Below are positions 24,293 to 41,100 of a stretch of DNA of 64,000 nt, one piece after another (within the stretch, counting starts at the first letter, position 1; the number at the start of each line of letters is the position of its first letter). The notes below the pieces were generated by a model. It ran no database searches and was not told where the DNA came from. It worked only from the letters and a program-made list of their open reading frames with translations. Source of the stretch: Daphnia carinata (taxonomy: Eukaryota; Arthropoda; Branchiopoda; Diplostraca; Daphniidae); the NCBI RefSeq assembly GCF_022539665.2, contig NC_081334.1, positions 7,224,424 to 7,288,423 on the forward strand, in the 5' to 3' direction. The translations under genes and the position numbers were made by a program.

Positions 24293-25701
24293 TCTTCGTG
24301 GAAAAAAGACGTGAACTAAATGGTGGTCATACCATGGTAAAAAAAAAAATGGACACGTCTTCGATTTTCTTTTATTTCTGGGGCCTGAATACCTTGGCCA
24401 CAAATGAGTAAGTATAAACAGAATAAGAAATTAATATGGTTTGCTATCTATATTTGTGTAACCTCTAACCTGTGTTCTCTTTTACCATGACTTCAAATTA
24501 TTTGGAATTTGCACGTGCGTTTTGTAGACCACAAAGTCTGCTTTAAGCATTTGGAACATACAGGTATCTTGTTTATGATATACTTTTGACCTAACCTGAT
24601 CTGCTGATGACATATTCGTAATCATAGAGGGCTTATTCTGGTACAAGTTGGCTAGCTTTACGCCAACAAGAATTTAGTAGTGAAAATTCAATAACACTCC
24701 TTTTCCAAAGTCTGGAAAACTAAACGGAAAGTATCAACTAAATTCAGGTAGCCTACACATTTTGTATGATCCCATGGTTACACTGCTCCAATATCCTTTA
24801 ACATGATTCCCTCTTCCGTAATCAGCAGTTTGCTAAAACATTTTAAAGTCTGCCAAAAAGTACATTACTTTTTTAATTCCCACCCATCATACGTGCCAAA
24901 CAGGAAGTAACTTTTAGCCAACAGACAAAACTTGTTGAGTTTGTTGACTGATAGTGTTGCATGCCATAATCCTGCATTGGGAGAGAAATCGTGAACGATG
25001 TTAGCGAAATATTCTCGATCTTGGTAGTAATTCGAGAATATAAAGTTAAACTTCACTTTAACTTAGCCAAAATGTAATAAAATTTTTTACAAAAATGTAT
25101 ATATATATCCACTGCACATGCAGAACAATGAGTTACTCTGTATAAAATCCTTTCATTAATTATTTTTGTATTGTTGAAAATTTTTTCAATGTATTAATGT
25201 TTAATTTTTCTTGTTGTTTCCAGCGGTGTCGCTCTTAGCAGGAATGTAGAGGAATAAAATCTGAGGCGAAGCGCGAGACGCAGGCATTCAACAAGTAAGT
25301 CTACGTTCAAAATTGTATAAACAAACCTTATATCCCAATTGGACTCCTTATTTTCGCTTTCTGTTATATCCAAACTGATTATTATTGCCTGATCATAAAT
25401 TTTCTCTTCTACTCAATAGGTGTGAACGCCTCTACTAGTTGCAGCCACAAGTCCGTTGTGCAATTACAATCAAGGTAGGAAAATACGCATTAAACTACAG
25501 CATGATTTTGAATAGTTCTTGGATGGATCGGGCAGTTGTTCCTCTTTCAGCTTTTTGTAACATATCATTGCGTAGGGAATCCTAAAGAAAGAATTTGCAA
25601 CCTGTTTGGTTGTTGGTAGGATCTGCCACACACGAGATTATTCTGGGATCCATTACTCTAAATTTTTATTTCAATTTCGTTTGCCAATTTTTTTCGCATA
25701 T
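24293..25701 (+). other. Possible spliced non-coding transcript upstream of tRNA-His 1
   Basis: No protein gene seen. Splice-like pairs on the plus strand include a donor GTAAGTATAA (24408), an exon-like stretch about 25225-25293 bounded by TTTCCAG and GTAAGTC, and another about 25431-25474 bounded by TCAATAG and GTAGGAAAA. Reading frames through these are closed. Similar donor strings (GTAAGTATAA and GTAGGAAAA) recur in the block that precedes tRNA-His 4. Transcription is inferred, not shown. Confidence 0.35.
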
Positions 25702-25786
25702 GCCGTGATCGTCTAGTGGTTAGGACCCTACGTTGTGGAAAAACGGTAATTCCGTAGTAACCCAGGTTCGAATCCTGGTCACGGCA
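25702..25786 (+). tRNA. tRNA-His(GTG) with 13-base intron, copy 1
   Basis: Cloverleaf: acceptor GCCGTGA with TCACGGC and discriminator A, D arm around TCTAGTGGTTAGGA, anticodon stem CTACG with CGTAG, loop TTGTGGC (anticodon GTG), and T arm CCAGG-TTCGAAT-CCTGG. The mature part is the usual animal tRNA-His sequence, 72 bases. Thirteen bases (AAAAACGGTAATT) interrupt the loop between positions 37 and 38, the canonical place for a nuclear tRNA intron. No T-run terminator is close downstream. Confidence 0.93.
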
Positions 25787-25982
25787 ATTCCATATTTATC
25801 TAACAATATTGCATCGCAGTGCAATTCAGAGTTCAATGCTTCAGGAAAATCAAATCAATTGAATTAGTTTACCTTCGAAAAATCAACCGATGCATCCCAA
25901 TAGCGAGCACACATTATCCGCGTTTTCCGTGAAAAACACGCAGCAAAATTAGATATACATTTTATCTATCCAAACCATAAGT

Positions 25983-26224
25983 GCCGGTAGCTTGGCGCGC
26001 TGCTGTAACCCTGCTTCTGGGGGGCTTAGTTCAGGGACGATTTATGGCATGCGTAATGTTTACCCGTCAACATGCGGTGGTTGTTACGTCCGGATAGCTG
26101 CCACGAGAGAATGTTGATTCCTCGAAGGCCACAGTGTTAGTTACACTGTTTCGGCGCAGCGACTAGAGTAGCACTGGGGGCAGGCAGACGTTACGTATGT
26201 CTATAGGATCGAACCTGTTCTTTT
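25983..26224 (+). ncRNA. SRP Alu-domain-like RNA, copy A
   Basis: The 5' end aligns with signal recognition particle RNA: GCCGG, a hairpin with stem GTAGC/GCTGC and GGC in the loop, CTGTAACC (the SRP9/14-binding turn), a second hairpin CCCTGCTTCTGGGG, then GGCTTAG. TCAGGGACGAT pairs with the 3' end ATCGAACCTG to close helix 5, and TTTT at 26221-26224 ends the gene. A TGGC-type A box (near 25993) and a 3' GGATCGAACC resembling a B box suggest RNA polymerase III. The centre contains a 7-bp hairpin (ACAGTGT, 26131-26137, with ACACTGT, 26143-26149) but no recognisable SRP S-domain motif. Confidence 0.6.
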
Positions 26225-27964
26225 ACTTTTCTTTTTTAGACATTTTTTGTGTTCTCCTTGTACGGGATCAATGATGGGAATCAGCTGAAATATTTTTGCC
26301 TACGTAGAAACATTTAAAAATGGATAACTAGGAAAATGTGTCCAGCGTAAGTTATTCCTTACTCTCGGAAGGTGTTTGATTTCATAGACTATTATCAAGG
26401 GGAATTTTTGAAAAATTTTAAGTATCGTAACGTTTGCTGAGTTATGGCTTTAAGAAAGTTTAGCTAGAAATGGGCGTCCCTATCCTGAGTATTATTAATA
26501 TTTTCTTTTGAAGGTGATTTTTTTTGCCAGAATACCGTCAGGCAATTGATTGCGCCAACACGATAACTTTCTTTCGTGTGTGATTTTTTCGCTTTTCGAT
26601 GAAAACTGCTTTGTTGTATGTTTTACTCACTAAACGCATAATGATATGACAAATGAGATTAGACAAGGCCCCGGGTAGGCAGATAAGACTTTGTTATGCC
26701 CTCACTTTTTGTTTCCTTTTTTTTTTTTGTCACTTGTTTTCCTGACGTCTAGTAAAACAGCACCTGGCGTCAGTGTAAACGTCATTAGCCGTTACGAAAA
26801 CAAAAGATTCACTTATGGGTTTTTTCATTCTGACCTAATCCATTTACGTTCTCACTGGTGTAGTAATTCATGTTTTTACCCAGATTGATCTCGTAAGTTC
26901 TATTTTTACTCAAATTGATCTCGTAACTTCTGTTTTATCCAACATTGAAATTAATCACCTTAAAAAAAATTATAAGACCGAACTTGTTATATAATTTGAA
27001 CCGATTTTGTCTGACATGGCAAGTGAAATCTTGAAAATTGCCGCGTTGTTGCGTCGTGCATTATCTTTTTCTTATTTTCGTTTTTTTTTTAAATGATGAC
27101 ACCGTATTGTTTTGAGATTGCGTCAGCTAGGCTAACACCAAGAATTTCGTGGTACAATTTTGAAAACGTTTGTAATTATAGGCGTGACGGCATCAGGATT
27201 CACAGGTGAACACTTTTTTCAAAGATTTTGGCGGGCGTGTATTGCCCAGTTATAAAAAAATAATCGCAATATCCAAACTGTTTCTACACACTTTTTTCCC
27301 TGACGGATTACGTTGTTTCTTAATAATTTGTGAATCTAGAAGGTACGAAACTTCAAACAGTCAGTTTTCTTGCATTAACAAAATTCTCCCATTGTTTTAT
27401 CATATTGAAATTGCCTCGGTTTGGGTTTCGATTATTTTCATCGGTTTTCGATAAATCTAGGTTTTTTTTTGTTTTTTTTGGAATGACCTACTTTTTGGCA
27501 TGACCTTGTTTTTGACAATTCCTATTGCACCCCAATAGCCAAATAACCCGCTCAATCCAGAGGGATCTAGCGTAAAATTCGACGTGGCTAGGGTACGATA
27601 ATCGTTCAGATCAAAAATATGGGTTTCGTATAGGATGACAACAGTGCCTCAAGAATGCCAATAGGAATAGTGCATCATTTTCAGACAGCTTGCTTTGCAA
27701 CGATGACGTCATTGTGTGAAATTCAAGAATTATGGGTGGGATTTGTTCATGCCATGTTACAAAAGGGATCGGATGTTAAAAGTATTTTTCTTATGCAAAA
27801 CGTGTTATTTTTTTTTTTTGGTTATACTCCGTTTTAACATATCCAAAACGTTTTTATTTCCAAGAAAAATGCAAGGTTACGCAAATTACGATTTTTCATC
27901 ATTTTCTTTGATTGATGGGGACCTTTGCAAGTGAATATCTATTTGAATTTTTAACTATTAGAAT
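26225..27964. other. AT-rich spacer between RNA copies A and B
   Basis: 1.7 kb with no recognised gene or mobile element. Open frames at 26691, 27206 and 27655 lack protein character. It holds the small tandem duplication listed separately. Confidence 0.5.
26882..26943 (+). repeat. Two-copy 31-bp tandem duplication
   Basis: Two adjacent units of about 31 bases share ATTGATCTCGTAA, TTCT and TTTTA with a few substitutions. This is local slippage or tandem duplication; no function is suggested. Confidence 0.75.
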
Positions 27965-28218
27965 GCTGGCAGTGTGGCGCTCTGCTATAACCCTGCGTCT
28001 GGGGAGCTTAGTGCAGGAACGGTTTATGGTTAATCCATTGCGTCTACTCCGTTGTAACCGTGTGTTAATGTCCGCCTCGTTTGGAGTTGCGAAGGCATTT
28101 CTCCTGTGGTGGTTAGCGATTTCGTTGGTACTGATTTCAGGTCTCGTTAACACCGCAACGGCGGACAGGAGATCCGGAAGGCGCTGAGGTTGGCCTATAG
28201 GATCGAACCTGTACTTTT
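27965..28218 (+). ncRNA. SRP Alu-domain-like RNA, copy B
   Basis: Same scaffold as copy A: GCTGG start, hairpin GCAG/CTGC around TGTGGCGCT, CTATAACCC, CCCTGCGTCTGGGG hairpin, GAGCTTAG. The closing helix GTGCAGG pairs with CCTGTAC at the 3' end, and TTTT at 28215-28218 terminates. The internal part is unrelated to copy A. Its ends pair as GTCCGCC (28070-28076) with GGCGGAC (28160-28166), enclosing about 80 bases. Open frames across it are accidental. Confidence 0.6.
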
Positions 28219-28564
28219 ATGAAAAAGTTTTTTAATGGAAAATTTCGATTCTGTTTCTAATGTAAAACCAGTTGAACCGGGAAATGAATTTTTGTCAAAC
28301 AAAGAGTATTTTTTTAGTAAAAAAAAAAAAAGGCTAAAACAAATCGCCCTGAATTGTTTGCCGTTTCACAACATTTCAGCACATTCTAGAAACAGTAGGG
28401 GAGAGGTTGGCACTAATTACGAACCTGTTGATCATACCTATTTTTATTTGGATATTTTTGTCTATCGTTTACGCATGGGACAAATAGCGATCGTTTCGAT
28501 ATGGAAGGCCGTTAACGTGACGCTAGCAAGATAATAGATATCCCCGTTTGTTGCATTCATAATA
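28219..28564. other. Spacer between RNA copies B and C
   Basis: 346 AT-rich bases including a run of 12 A at about 28320. Nothing else was recognised. Confidence 0.5.
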
Positions 28565-28827
28565 GCTGGTAGTGTGGCAAACTACTATAACCCTGCTTCT
28601 GGGGAGCTGAGAATGGGGATGCCTATGAATATGGTTGCGGTTGTCGAGTTGCTAGATTTTCAGGGCGGAGCCGCGATGCAGGTGGTTCCGGCCCGCTTAG
28701 CTACATGCCATCAATCCTCCGGCAGAAGGATTGTCGGAGGATGGAAGGCGAGTAGCTAAGCGTCAGCAGAATTTCAATGGTACACCGTGTGCCAGACCTG
28801 GGATTCTTAGATCGAACCCATTCTTTT
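28565..28827 (+). ncRNA. SRP Alu-domain-like RNA, copy C
   Basis: Same scaffold with compensatory changes: the first hairpin stem is GTAG/CTAC instead of GCAG/CTGC, and the closing helix is GAATGGG/CCCATTC instead of GTGCAGG/CCTGTAC. CTATAACCC and the GGGGAGCT element are kept, and TTTT at 28824-28827 terminates. The centre is unique and carries a 67-base hairpin (28695-28761) with a perfect 10-bp base GCTTAGCTAC/GTAGCTAAGC and an inner stem TCCTCCG/CGGAGGA. The covariation argues that the RNA fold, not just the DNA, has been maintained. Confidence 0.62.
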
Positions 28828-29285
28828 AACGTTGAACTTTTTTACTAATGGAAAAGAACCGCTTGAATTTTAATGAAGTCAAATTTTTTCCACTTTCGAT
28901 CAAGAGGTGTTCGTTGAATTTTTATATTCTTTTCACCAGTTTTTGTTTTCCGTCATATTTTGGACGCCATTGTGTTACCTAACAGAAAATAAGATAACAC
29001 TCACCGGTGTGTGCGTAAGGCAATACAGGCATTTTTGCCTTCTCCCAATCTATTTTATGTTATTGCAGTTCGAACTTAAAAAGTCTGAGTTCGGAAACTA
29101 GGTGTCACTTTTGCAGTAAAAACAACCGCATCAGGGAAAGAATATTCGACCAGAGAAACTTTTCTTGGAATTTTTTTTTTTTAATTTAAATGTCTTGATT
29201 TACCATTTTCGCAACTTTCGATAGTGTCGAGAGATCGTAAAATTATTCCTACAAATAATTGTTGATGGCTTTCATTTTTAATCAT
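28828..29285. other. Spacer between RNA copy C and tRNA copy 2
   Basis: 458 bases, AT-rich, with a 14-T run near 29170. No gene recognised. Confidence 0.5.
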
Positions 29286-29369
29286 GCCGTGATCGTCTAG
29301 TGGTTAGGACCCTACGTTGGGGATTACAATTATCCCGTAGTAACCCAGCTTCGAATTCTGATCACGGCA
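29286..29369 (+). pseudogene. tRNA-His-derived gene, anticodon GGG, decayed T stem (copy 2)
   Basis: Acceptor, D arm and anticodon stem match the tRNA-His copies, and a 12-base intron (ATTACAATTATC) interrupts the loop at the same site. The anticodon reads GGG instead of GTG (nominally proline), and the T arm is CCAGC-TTCGAAT-TCTGA, which breaks several pairs. The loop, arm and acceptor otherwise remain recognisable. A TTTT lies about 10 bases downstream. It most likely no longer works as a tRNA. Confidence 0.8.
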
Positions 29370-29591
29370 ATTAATTTCATTTTATCAAATGGATCCGTGC
29401 GAAGGTTGAACTGAATCCACTTGATAATCGAAAATTTGTCGTCGGCGTATTGAAAATCTGTGAAAATTCACGTTGAAAATTGGCCCGTCTATGAATTTCC
29501 AATTAACCGTTTGATGTTCATGCGAAAGCCTAGGCTAGCATACATTAGCTACACGAGAAAAATCAGTAAAGTATTATTGATTTGTTCTATA

Positions 29592-29856
29592 GCCGGCAGA
29601 CAGGCAAGCTGCTGTAACCCTGCAAATGGGGGGGCTGAGTACAGGGACGATTTATGACAATTAAGGTGTCTATAATAAAGTGAGGTGTTGGCTAATGTCC
29701 GGCTCAATGAGCAAGAAATTCGCCAAAGTGCAAGAAACTCTCACGATCGAAACCCATTGCAAAGGTGATCGTGATTCAGAAGTAAAACTGCGGCGACGGG
29801 CAAAAGTATAATAAGTAGACACTGCGAGCCGTCTATAGGATCGAACCTGTTCTTTT
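29592..29856 (+). ncRNA. SRP Alu-domain-like RNA, copy D
   Basis: GCCGG start, hairpin GCAG/CTGC around ACAGGCAAG, CTGTAACCC, a CCCTGCAAATGGGG hairpin, GGCTGAGT, closing helix GTACAGG/CCTGTTC and TTTT at 29853-29856. Its 5' and 3' ends are closest to copy A (shared CAGGGACGATTTATG and GTCTATAGGATCGAACCTG). The centre differs and holds an 8-bp hairpin (TCACGATC, 29741-29748, with GATCGTGA, 29767-29774). It follows tRNA copy 2 by 222 bases, much as copy A follows tRNA copy 1 by 196. Confidence 0.6.
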
Positions 29857-30142: not shown

Positions 30143-30233
30143 GCCGTGATCGTCTAGTGGTTAGGACCCTACGTTGTGGATTCGCAACGTATACAAAACC
30201 GTAGTAACCCAGGTTCGAATCCTGGTCACGGCA
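30143..30233 (+). tRNA. tRNA-His(GTG) with 19-base intron, copy 3
   Basis: The mature sequence is identical to copy 1 (72 bases, anticodon GTG, intact T arm). The intron after position 37 is 19 bases (ATTCGCAACGTATACAAAA), different in sequence and length from the other copies. CAACG inside it can pair with CGTTG at the anticodon-loop edge, as precursor tRNA introns often do. TTTT lies 8 bases downstream. Confidence 0.93.
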
Positions 30234-30617
30234 CAAATGTTTTGTCTTCATTCCAAATGTTGAGCTTTCGTCGGAAACATTCCGTATGCCAGCGGGCTAG
30301 ACTTTGTTATTCGTGAGTAGATATTGACGACGATCTTCTAACATTGACCATTCAACTTTGACCGGACGTGTGGTGTTCCATTTTGAATTATCCCAGGTTG
30401 TGAAAGCGAATCATTTTCCCACGTCATTTTTACTCTGAAGGATATATTGAAATCCCTTTGAAGTTTTTCAGTTTTTAAGCCTTGCATGTTTTGCACTAGC
30501 TAAGTGAATTTGTGCGTATAAAAGAATGTTCGACACATATTCTCACAACAAAAGGACATGCAAAATTGACTATTTTCCAAAATGCATGTATTTTTTTTAT
30601 ACAAGAGTTTCAGGGAA
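30234..30617. other. Spacer between tRNA copy 3 and ELP3 3' end
   Basis: 384 bases; the distal part is probably ELP3 3' UTR. No other element was recognised. Confidence 0.5.
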
Positions 30618-32950
<2,333 letters not shown>

Positions 32951-36711: not shown

Positions 36712-38082
36712 CTTGAACGTTCGCAGAAATCAGTAAGTGTGCAACGTGTAAGGAGATGTTTCTACCCTTCTTTTGTCCTGGACTTCAAAATTTTGTAAGT
36801 ATAATATTGAATTCAGTTAGATTTATTTAACTTGTGGCCTATTCGACTGCTAAACTCTTACCTTAACGAGTTTCAGTGGAAGTGGAGAGAATTTAATGTG
36901 AAATACTTGTATTTGCCAGTCTTTCCTCCCATTTTGTGTGATGGGGAATGGTATGAAGCATTTACCCATCATTGACAATAATTTGGCTACTTTCTTGAAC
37001 TGTATTTATTCATTTAGTTAGGCAAGGCATAAGTGATCCTTTCCCATGTTCGTATTTGGGCACCATGCCTGTAATTGAGGTATATGGAAATCCAGGCAGA
37101 ATTGCATAAGAGTTCGTGAACTTTCAAGAGGACAGGCCACGTATCAACAAAGACTTTAGGTTGCTTTGAAATTAGCAGCTCAGTTTCACATCTTGTTGCC
37201 CGTCAGTCACACTTGTGCCTAAAACAATGTATTATTGTCACTTTTATTTGAAATTGTTTTTTTTAGTTTTGCAAAGTGTCAAGGAATTTCGTAGTTGCCG
37301 TTGTGCTGATCGTAATATTGCCTTCAGCTCTATGCAATCGAGAAACCGAAGTCGCAAATAACTTGGGGAAAGAATTCTTTCAGTAGTCAAGAACGTACCG
37401 TGAAACCCAACAAAGTGTTTTTTGAACAACTGGCTTGGTAGTTTTCCGTGGGGTTGGCAAGCAAACGTAAAAATTAATGTAAACTAAATCGGCGTACAGT
37501 CTCACTGTAGTCGTGAGCAAAGTGGCACCACATGTCTAGCTTTATTGCCAGATGCTTTCTGAAGTCACTACTATGTTGTGCAATAAGTTTGATATGTGCT
37601 TGGGATTTTCTAACTAAAATCCATCTACTAATTTTAGGAACATCCATGTTTCCAAAAGCAGGCAGTTTACAATTCAGCTTTGTAAGGACATTCACAACTG
37701 GAGAAACATGTGTGTACCGTTTATCAACACGGAAAGCTGTTTCAGGTAAATGATTAACTTATTCTAATCTACTAAAAGTGGCAAGACTAACTGCAGTTTT
37801 TTCTTCTCTAGGATGCTGGTGATATACTTCGCTATCGATACTTCTTTGATGCTATGGGGTGTAGCGTCTTCGTTCCAGTGCAACAGTAGCTCTATAAGGC
37901 CCATTACATTGAAAGGTAGGAAAAATCAGAAATATTTTTAGATTTGACATAGGAAAGATAGGTTTTTATTTCTTTCGGCCGTTAGGTAGATCTTTTTGTA
38001 AAAAGCAGGTTAGGTTGTGCGCGGTGTTTAAATTTTTTTCTTCCACGTTCTTTGTTTGGAAATGCTGTCAGTTTGTACATAT
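36712..38082 (+). other. Possible spliced non-coding transcript upstream of tRNA-His 4
   Basis: No protein gene seen. Splice-like signals include GTAAGTATAA (36795), TTTCAG before about 36880, a GTAAATG donor at about 37745, CTCTAG before 37812 and GTAGGAAAA at 37916. The exon-like end ATTACATTGAAAG before GTAGGAAAA resembles ATTACAATCAAG before GTAGGAAAA in the first block, which also lies about 200 bases before its tRNA-His. Confidence 0.35.
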
Positions 38083-38167
38083 GCCGTGATCGTCTAGTGG
38101 TTAGGACCCTACGTTGTGGAAAAACGATAATTCCGTAGTAACCCAGGTTCGAATCCTGGTCACGGCA
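38083..38167 (+). tRNA. tRNA-His(GTG) with 13-base intron, copy 4
   Basis: Mature part identical to copies 1 and 3. The intron AAAAACGATAATT differs from copy 1 at one base. It lies 8 kb from the main cluster, at the end of the second duplicated block. No close T-run terminator follows. Confidence 0.93.
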
Positions 38168-41100
38168 ATTCATTCTTGTTGCCAACAGACATCAGGGCGT
38201 CCTAATCGTTTAGGACAACCTTCAAATAGAATTTTCTTCGGGAGGGTCCATCAGGAATCGCCGGGAAATGGGTGTAATTCTTTCAACAGTTGTGGCAAAA
38301 TGGGTAAAAAAAAATCTTATATCCTTAGATAAAAGATGGCGCAAAAACAGGACGGGCAATAACAGAGTTATAAAATTGTTGACGTTGCATGTCTGTCGCA
38401 AGATGTTGTCCCTCTTTCATTCCAAGATCAAAACAGCGATTAAGCTTTCTACATTTTGTATGGCAGCATCCGAAATGCTTCAATAACATTAGCATAAAAT
38501 GCAAATTGACACGAAAAAGTTTTGTATTGCTTGTTGTTCGGTGTAGCTCACGTACGTCGCCATCTGCGACTTTGTACGATGGAAAACAACAACATCCCCT
38601 CCCCATGTCTGCGTTAAGTTGTGGACCATATTGGAAGGTACGCAGATAGAAACAGAGAGATTGGGTTGATATCAATCGACCATGTCGACTGTAATATTTG
38701 ATCAAAGTAACGAGCTAATGGAAAACAGAGAGAGAACTCCGACTGACATAGTCTCTCTGTGACAGTCTTTGACAAACAAGCTAGAGCTAGAGCAAGGGTG
38801 TGTATATAACAAGGAATAATCCCGACGAATGCAAACAGCAATGGCGTAGGCAAGAAGAAAAGGGGAAGAGGGGTGGAAAAAGGGGGGATGGGGAGGAGGG
38901 GAAGGGGGGGGAGTGTGCGGTAATCACCGGGATGGCGTTCAACATCTGACAGTTTCGAGTCCGCCAAGGCACACAGAATAGAGCAGGTTGAAATTCCCCT
39001 GGCGAGTAGCTTCATCGACGATACATAAGAGAGGGGAATGAAAGTGTACGGATGAGACATAGTACACATAACAGTTTGACGGTATCGTCGGGGGCAAATA
39101 ACAGCTGAAAAAAAAAGGGAGCGTCGTGGCGGATAAACATTCAAGAAAAAGGGAAGGGCACCGCCATTTCAAAAAATACCCTGACATTTTCTGTAGTCTT
39201 GTCTCTGTTGCACGTTTGCCATGCAAATGTTCACTCTAGCGTGACACGCGCTGTACGTTCTCCTGTTTTTGAAAAAAAAAAAAAAAAAAAAGAAGCTAGC
39301 CATGAAAGCTTACTACTAAAAGTCTTTTTTCATGACATCTCCTTTTATATCTCATATGGAATCGTTTCAGGCATATTTTCGTTTTTATTTGTTTAGTCCT
39401 TTGATCTTTCATGGATTGAATTTCACCTTCATTACACACTCTTTTATTGTTTGCGATCGTCTTCCCTTTTTTTTTTTTTGAAAATCTAAAGATCAGGTTT
39501 CTTTTGATGAGTTTTGATTCTCAGTTTGCGTTTTTTACGGGCACTTAATTTTGATCGTCATTCAATTTGAATGAATAAAATCAACTGCCTCGATTTTTTT
39601 TTTCCTTTCCCCCGTAATTCAAATCGTTCCCTCCTCTCTTTTTTGGGAAACCAAATGTATGCGGCCGAAGCTAATATAACTGTCAGGTGATAAATGATGC
39701 AATTCGATCAAGTGGCCGATCTACAGTCGGCCACTTGGGTCCCGCATAGCGTCGAAGGGTTAGTGATCATATTATTCAAATCAAGCGGCCGCTCGGCGGT
39801 CAGATTGGGGACCCGAAAAGCGGAAAAGGGATCGTCATCACAAAAGAATAGGAGCCTTGTTGTCCACCACACTCATTCAAATTCTCCTTTTTTTTTCCCG
39901 TTCGACGTGCACCAAAAAGGGGGGGGGGAGGGATAGTATAAAAAAGTAAACACACACACAAAAAAAAGGCGGTTTGACCATTACCGAAAAGCGTGTCGCC
40001 ACAATTCGGGTGTATCGAAACGAATGTATAGAGTAGATAGAAAAGGCAGTGGGTGTATTGAACCAATAATGGTCCGGCGAGCTTCTTTTGTTTGCCCGAC
40101 TCTTTACGCTGGCCCTCATCGCTGGAGGACCTTTTTTGCCAAGGGGGTAGAATCGACACCCTCCTCCTTCCCCCCTTCCCTCCTTTTCTTTTTGTTTGTT
40201 GCCGTAACCCTTTTGTAATGTTAATCTCGATATGATCTAGACGCTTGTACTCGTCTAGTGACATGCAGAGATGGATTGTTATTATTTATTCCGGCCGGAA
40301 GTTTGCATCCCGACTTCCGTTTTTTTGTCACTCCGAATTTCTCTGTTCCATCTCCTTTTTTCTTTTGCTGAATTAATTAAAAAAAAAAGAGAGAGAAACT
40401 AGCCGAGTCACAATCGAGCAAAGTTAATTATGTCTTCCGGGATGAGCGCCAAGGATCGTTAAGAAGCGATCATAAAACTAACAGGGAAAGGTCCACAAAA
40501 CTCATAATCTACGCACAACGTTACAGACCTTTTCTTTTTTTTTTTTACCGCAATGGAAATATCAACAGTCGACTGTTAGATATTACCATTTCAGCTCGAC
40601 TTGTTTTAATTACAGCACTAAACAGTTTTGCCAATAATCAAGGGATGAAAAATACACCGAGAGATCTATTTCATAGTCCGAGAATGGGGGACCGGGGCGG
40701 GTTGGTTAGGCTATATCTATATGTTCGCTTGATCCCTATCATTCGAGGGGGAGGGCAGGTTCCTTTTCGTAGTCCAGTCGTAAGATTTTTCGTTGGTTGA
40801 GATGGCAAAACCGAAGCTCATATATTATTAGACGTCTACCGTGCGCGCACCCGAAACTCTCTCCATACGTTAAGATAGATAGCGCCGCCAGTCGTAAAAA
40901 CTCGTACGCACAAAACTGAAACTAAGACGAATAGGGGAAAAAGAAAAAATCCTTATAGCTTACGATAGAAGGAGGGCACTATGTTATCTGGTTTTCTTGT
41001 ACTGTCTATGCCCGGCAAGGTTTATACATCAAAAACTCTTGAAAGGGAGGAGGAGGAGTAGGGATTTAATCGACTGGAATGAGACCCCCCGAAAAAAAAG

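Follow-up and report, generated by a model that had tools for sequence, protein, structure and literature searches.

Introduction

BC200 of primates is an RNA in which an Alu domain is followed by A-rich and unique tails. The Alu RNAs of primates that derive from the RNA of the signal recognition particle (SRP) and have no S domain, namely BC200 and Alu RNA, are described in PMC8185352 as regulating translation via SRP9/14: assembled with SRP9/14 into ribonucleoprotein particles (RNPs), Alu RNA inhibits both the formation of 48S and the initiation of translation, in free form it titrates SRP9/14, and BC200 forms an SRP9/14 RNP. The Alu domain of the SRP itself is reported to dock in the ribosome factor-binding site (PMC8137916). 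Here we describe four neighbouring genes, copies A to D, for putative Alu-domain RNAs in a stretch of 64,000 nucleotides (nt) of the Daphnia carinata contig NC_081334.1 (7,224,424–7,288,423; the window hereafter), taken from an assembly of 108 Mb in 106 contigs. The reading we favour, at a probability of about 0.55, is that A–D are old, diverged duplicates of SRP RNA which selection has maintained as Alu-domain RNAs, and that they are probably translation modulators of the BC200 kind transcribed by RNA polymerase III (Pol III). If true, a constrained four-member crustacean family would represent an independent evolution of such RNAs from SRP RNA, and would offer a small locus for asking what the Alu domain does in its own right and why the rod and two-armed shape outlasts the SRP54 site.

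The closest described RNA is metazoan SRP RNA (7SL, RF00017), with which A–D share helices 2–4, the pseudoknot loops, a rod with a two-armed tip and a nearby tRNA-His, and with which A, B and D also share GUCCG at an equal offset. A–D differ from it in scoring 16–37 bits against a cut-off of 70, in measuring 242–265 nt rather than ~297, in that the loop sequences of helix 8, helix 6 and 5e were not found in them, and in the UAU of B and C. Primate BC200 and the small cytoplasmic Alu RNAs resemble A–D in having an SRP-derived Alu domain, no SRP S domain, a unique remainder and few copies, whereas A–D belong to an independent lineage, carry a long structured two-armed rod in place of the A-rich and unique tails, and comprise four paralogues with different tips and a putative function. 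SINEs (short interspersed elements) derived from 7SL, such as Alu and B1, likewise have an Alu-type head and a Pol III B-box, but A–D are four copies at one locus and none was found dispersed. We class A–D as probable SRP-derived Alu-domain RNAs that would have evolved independently and have a structured rod and tip. A literature search over titles and the openings of abstracts, with subscription papers mostly outside it, showed among the papers listed no Alu-domain RNA of Daphnia or another arthropod, and none that linked SRP RNA or its Alu domain to Daphnia.

Copies, model scores and the SRP RNA genes of the genome

All four copies lie on the plus strand: A at 25983–26224 (242 nt), B at 27965–28218 (254 nt), C at 28565–28827 (263 nt) and D at 29592–29856 (265 nt). 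When 5.1 kb of the window was scanned against all 4227 Rfam families, with matches listed to E=10, the Metazoa_SRP model matched A with 36.8 bits (E=5.1e-7), B with 34.1 bits (E=2.9e-6) and C with 24.2 bits (E=0.0022). D was absent from this list; only a 269-base search of D alone found it, with a full-length match of 16.1 bits (E=0.026) that leaves its centre unaligned. None of the copies reached the gathering score of 70 bits, and a run at gathering scores over the window returned three tRNAs and nothing else. Each of the four matches begins at the 5' end of its copy; those to A, B and D span exactly the intervals given above, and that to C starts at 28565 and closes early, at 28721. The coordinates in the original prediction, which had been made from the letters of the sequence, are thus reproduced by the model at both ends of A, B and D and at the start of C.

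At least 24 SRP RNA genes in the genome, on C5, C6 and C8, exceed the Rfam cut-off, with 164.8–256.3 bits and 294–298 nt; the count is a lower bound, resting on 26 scored candidates out of 1022. The 5' end of the Alu domain, written as a 32-place pattern and searched through 108 Mb with at most two mismatches, gave 28 sites, made up of the 24 true SRP RNA genes and A–D, and the backwards pattern gave none. With 24 intact SRP RNA genes elsewhere, A–D are extra to them and are not this animal's SRP RNA, in keeping with the earlier claim that ordinary SRP genes are not what they are. Narrower patterns, one for the head and one for the tail, found only the A–D locus and one true SRP RNA gene; they are not exhaustive, D having escaped the first and C the second. 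No fifth copy was found in the window at up to six head mismatches, and an exact pattern occurred 0 times in viral and 0 times in prokaryotic contigs, as expected of an animal RNA. The family seems to be confined to one small cluster, unlike a dispersed element. A dispersed SINE was rejected: apart from true SRP RNAs, the head and tail patterns found only the A–D locus and no dispersed retroposed copies.

Conserved ends and the Alu domain

The four copies were aligned pairwise (six pairs) and compared with 200 dinucleotide shuffles, taking 62 nt as head, 30 nt as tail and 200 nt as flank. Heads scored better than 200/200 shuffles in all six pairs, and tails did likewise, which bears out the proposal of common 5' and 3' ends. 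The centres, said in the original prediction not to align, were at chance level in five pairs, whereas B–D scored slightly higher (equalled by 3/200 shuffles), so the statement holds except for that pair. The 200-nt flanks were at chance level on both sides in 12/12 comparisons, the nearest being equalled by 15/200 shuffles. An SRP RNA pseudogene would be expected to have decayed evenly in gene and flanks; here the ends are kept and the flanks are at chance level. That duplicates with such flanks have preserved their heads and tails implies, as judged from these alignments, that the ends of the RNAs are under purifying selection.

Alignment and pair counts place the Alu 5' domain (helices 2, 3 and 4) at 25983–26026 in A, 27965–28008 in B, 28565–28608 in C and 29592–29636 in D, and the conserved tail, GATCGAACC followed by TGTTCTTTT, at 26207–26224, 28201–28218, 28810–28827 and 29839–29856, respectively. 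In helices 2–4, 96.9% of 96 cells were paired across A–D and four distinct true SRP RNAs, against 42–62% for slid partners. Six Alu-helix pairs were doubly changed in this set (reached by 19/500 shuffles), with 19 double-change cells (0/500 shuffles; 0–3 with slid partners), a covariation score of 0.506 (0/500 shuffles) and an ordinary number of pair types (189/500 shuffles), where the shuffles ignore relatedness and the contrast stems largely from two groups, A–D and SRP. Together with the Rfam matches, this covariation with true SRP RNAs supports the earlier identification of the shared ends as an SRP-type Alu domain. Among A–D, a helix 2 pair alternates between C-G and U-A, as do helix 3 pairs, and the base of helix 5, formed between head and tail, shows C-G/U-A, A-U/G-C and A-U/U-A exchanges (reached by 17/500 shuffles); in copy C the closing helix carries C-G/U-A and A-U/G-C changes.

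The loops expected to form the Alu pseudoknot are present in 4/4 copies, with GGC in the loop of helix 3 and GC in that of helix 4, which we take to be the bases that pair. The turn between the helices, given previously as TRTAACCC, has to be amended: A and D have UGUAA here, B and C UAUAA. The form UGUNR, given for the SRP turn in PMC4605306, was found in 24/24 true SRP RNAs of the genome.

The centre: S-domain hallmarks, rod and tip

Three centres, those of A, B and C, were scanned alone against Rfam and gave no match to the SRP clan to E=10 (the centre of D was covered only within the full-length match, where it is unaligned). As a positive control, the corresponding part of one true SRP RNA gave 115.7 bits (E=2.5e-31). 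This agrees with the original prediction that no S domain is recognisable by sequence. GCAGCCAAAAGTT of helix 8, checked for the internal loops that serve SRP54, occurred in 4/4 distinct true SRP RNAs checked and in 0/4 copies, and its 8-mer cores were present in 24/24 true SRP RNAs. Eighteen 8-mers, including the helix 8 core, recur in every one of the 24 true SRP centres, and none of them was found in A–D. In the predicted folds, a loop of the GNAR type, the helix 6 loop motif at which SRP19 is loaded, was found in one of the four copies only (B, GAAG). The third-position A of the helix 6 loop is given as conserved in PMC4605306.

GTCCG, which we read as the 5' strand of SRP 5e, lies at nt 106–110 of A (26088–26092), B (28070–28074) and D (29697–29701) on the plus strand, and at the same place in 23/24 true SRP RNAs; the one exception would be L023, a true SRP RNA shorter by 3 nt. 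A 5-mer at equal offset in A, B, D and SRP was obtained in 0/2000 shuffles, and a 5-mer in A, B and D alone, with a tolerance of 3 nt, in 12/2000. For human SRP RNA, PMC2995471 describes the 5e motif as a 3-nt loop, 240-AUC-242, with SRP72 binding and a kink-turn. By our own mapping, GUCC would be the 5' strand of 5e in Daphnia SRP RNA, opposite GGAUCGC. No 3-nt loop opposite GUCC was present in the predicted folds of A, B and D, in which GUCC pairs at the base of the tip. Since this strand pairs without the loop, the SRP72 site of A, B and D has probably gone while its register was kept. Descent of the tail from the 3' strand of SRP 5e was also considered and rejected, the common TAGGATCG being likely a coincidence by a rough hand estimate.

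In its minimum-energy fold, each of the four copies has a rod that starts from nt 45 or 46, across from the tail, and has a two-branch junction at its end. The rod comprises 55 pairs in A, 48 in B, 39 in C and 44 in D, its predicted 5' strand, similar to helix 5, running over 26028–26094, 28010–28076, 28609–28657 and 29637–29701. The two-hairpin tip was predicted at 26100–26149 in A, 28083–28157 in B, 28663–28761 in C, where both hairpins are strong, and 29702–29796 in D. When the centre was shuffled with head and tail held fixed, an equally long rod with a two-branch tip was obtained in 0, 0, 3 and 1 of 200 shuffles for A, B, C and D. Of two true SRP RNAs folded, L003 folds alike, with 58 pairs from nt 46 and two branches, and L014 folds without a closing helix. 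Whole-copy fold z-scores were −4.58 for A, −5.45 for C and −2.57 for D (5/200 shuffles of D fold equally well), and the centres alone gave −2.68, −1.87, −8.40 and −2.09 (A, B, C, D) in the sense and −2.47, −1.01, −4.32 and −2.65 in the antisense direction; 30 neighbouring windows had a mean of −0.14 (standard deviation 1.12), one of them below −2.

The original prediction had described unrelated central domains, or private inserts, within the Alu-type cap. We dropped this idea for a shared SRP-type layout, since all four centres fold like SRP RNA, with a rod and two hairpins that beat shuffles, and GUCCG is at nt 106 in three of the four. On these predicted folds, the centres look like rewritten SRP RNA and not like foreign inserts in a cap.

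Searching the joined centres against the genome, at BLAST level with three candidates scored, gave five matches, which are the four centres and the arm of a hairpin in C. The search was also considered for an antisense target of the centres; at BLAST level, short complementarity aside, it gave only self matches. The tip of C holds a near-perfect hairpin of 67 nt (28695–28761) that resembles a microRNA precursor below cut-off, on both strands.

Promoter and termination

The tails of 4/4 copies contain GATCGAACC, an exact match to the B-box consensus of Pol III promoters, which was found in 0/2 true SRP RNAs scanned. Copy C keeps GATCGAACC although the partner with which it pairs has partly changed, which fits a promoter role. 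All four copies end in ..CTTTTA, a run of four T, as the original prediction of T-run 3' ends had it. Pol III transcription of A–D, also part of that prediction, is plausible from the T-runs and the B-box in 4/4 copies.

Interpretation and alternatives

In the mechanism that we propose, Pol III would transcribe each copy from an internal promoter, the B-box of the 3' tail, and stop at the T-run. The RNA would have retained the Alu domain (helices 2–4 and the base of helix 5), the rod resembling helix 5 and the two-armed tip. The loading elements for SRP72, SRP19 and SRP54 were looked for in A–D by sequence and predicted fold and not found, from which we infer that binding of these proteins was lost. 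The Alu end may be taken by SRP9/14 or enter the ribosome factor-binding site, as with Alu RNA and BC200. Deprived of signal-sequence recognition, such RNAs would tune translation or titrate SRP9/14 and would not target proteins, and, as the tips differ, each RNA may be tethered by its tip to a partner or site of its own. A further suggestion, to be taken as speculative, is that A–D form a second class of SRP-shaped particles with an Alu end, a rod toward the place of the S domain and four rewritten tips, each of which could pause or tag ribosomes on a cue other than a signal sequence; if true, this would be a neofunctionalisation of SRP RNA in an arthropod.

Several observations weigh against the reading of A–D as selected Alu-domain RNAs. 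UGU is the motif recognised by SRP9/14 (PMC8137916), and its replacement by UAU weakens the case, made on the turn sequence, for SRP9/14 on B and C. The human Alu pseudoknot has three pairs (PMC8137916), and D has an A at the C expected for the third. Covariation of the Alu helices within A–D alone was matched by 59/500 shuffles and does not beat them; the compensatory changes put forward earlier are seen as exchanges in helix 2, helix 3 and the closing helix. As to the centre, the fold z-score of B is modest (−1.81, with 11/200 shuffles folding equally well), certainty is lowest for the rod of C (mean pair probability 0.63), and the centre of D folds as well in antisense (−2.65) as in sense (−2.09). 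C is without GUCCG at the nt 106 offset and has, at nt 201, one AGCAG, a 5-mer of helix 8. The heads of A–D showed no strict A-box, and a shared upstream promoter was rejected, the 200-nt upstream stretches being at chance in 6/6 pairs. The partners are assumed: Pfam SRP9 and SRP14 were unmatched in the genome, searched exon by exon, where controls were equally silent, making the result uninformative.

Two explanations, which we hold to be unlikely and about equally so, leave A–D closer to SRP RNA. The copies could be variant SRP RNAs on which most of the SRP proteins, perhaps SRP68/72 together with SRP9/14, still come together in a specialised particle, with an S domain diverged beyond recognition. 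The SRP-like rod with its two-armed tip and GUCCG at the same offset in three of four copies speak for this, as does the strong divergence of helix 8 recorded for basidiomycete SRP RNAs in PMC4605306. Against it, the predicted folds of A, B and D have no 3-nt loop opposite GUCC, the GNAR-type loop is confined to B (GAAG), 0/18 of the SRP-invariant 8-mers occur in any copy and Rfam found no S-domain match in A, B and C. The copies could also be slowly decaying pseudogenes from an old segment of tRNA-His and SRP RNA, to which their divergence, the UAU turn of B and C, a degenerate tRNA-His at 29286 and the multi-copy SRP arrays of the genome would be suited. Neutral decay should, however, strike head, centre and flanks equally, whereas the heads are 60–77% identical to SRP and the flanks are at chance; compensatory pairs, SRP-like folds, and T-run ends with a B-box in 4/4 copies also argue against decay.

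That the rods and the hairpin of C are Dicer substrates yielding small RNAs, the Alu end being only a promoter or stabilising cap, seems to us improbable. The tip hairpin of C (28695–28761) did match mir-4662 (31.5 bits, E=5.6e-5, below the cut-off of 97) and the centre of C has the fold z-score of −8.4, yet matches of a palindrome on both strands carry little meaning, A, B and D have no such hairpin, the joined centres have no other match in the genome at the level searched, and the kept pseudoknot loops would stay unexplained. A 7SL-derived SINE family would account for the Alu-like head and the Pol III B-box, but it was found at one locus only and its centres are not common to the copies, and we give it hardly any weight.

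Neighbouring tRNA-His genes and SRP RNA arrays

Four tRNA-His or tRNA-His-like sites are located on the plus strand of the window. A tRNA with a GTG anticodon and extra bases after it (25701–25787) starts 281 nt before A; we take it to be tRNA-His from GTG and the tRNA-His sequence, and ARAGORN called it Ser. A degenerate tRNA-His-like copy (29286–29369) with GGG in the anticodon place and changes in the T-arm starts 306 nt before D, and had no ARAGORN call and no Rfam call at gathering score. Downstream of D is a tRNA-His whose extra bases form a longer run (30143–30234; Pro by ARAGORN), and a fourth tRNA-His of the window (38082–38168) has no Alu-type head found beside it. ARAGORN was run with the bacterial code, and its three calls in the window are Ser or Pro.

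The tRNA-His genes near A–D, at distances of 0.3–1.3 kb, share their strand, one of them lying shortly upstream of A and another shortly upstream of D, and 19/24 true SRP RNA genes lie 1.4–2.0 kb from a tRNA-His on the opposite strand, the other five having none nearby. From this linkage of both the true SRP RNA genes and A–D, the cluster would derive from an old unit of SRP and tRNA-His that was later rearranged. A and D share UGU and a C-G pair in helix 2, and B and C, which are neighbours, share UAU and a U-A pair, which suggests, as far as these positions go, two older lineages, A/D and B/C.

At least 36 tRNA-His-like sites are present in the genome. Extra bases right after the anticodon place, intron-like and variable in length and sequence, were seen in 15/15 of the tRNA-His-like genes and remnants read; an intron-bearing tRNA-His looks unusual for an animal. 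Two tRNA-His-like copies, that at 29286–29369 of the window and L073, have GGG in the anticodon place, being relics or odd isoacceptors. The A–D cluster is flanked by minus-strand open frames ending near 24.3 kb and by a minus-strand open frame with a GNAT domain (30618–31064), which presumably represents the C-terminus of ELP3. A BUD13 protein encoded in the window shows 99% identity, over 96% of its length, to its Daphnia carinata counterpart.

The true SRP RNA genes on C5 form arrays in which about half of the gaps are ~4.7 kb (8.84–8.94 Mb) or ~10.3 kb (5.96–6.00 Mb); tRNA-His lies on the opposite strand and many SRP copies are identical. L027 (C5:9334138–9334286) is an SRP RNA fragment that covers model positions 105–246 with 62.1 bits, an S-domain half without an Alu domain and in this the mirror image of A–D. 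L024 (C5:9328382–9328679), an SRP RNA with 167 bits whose last ~40 bases, in the 3' strand of the helix 5 base, are unlike those of other copies, is probably a damaged array member.

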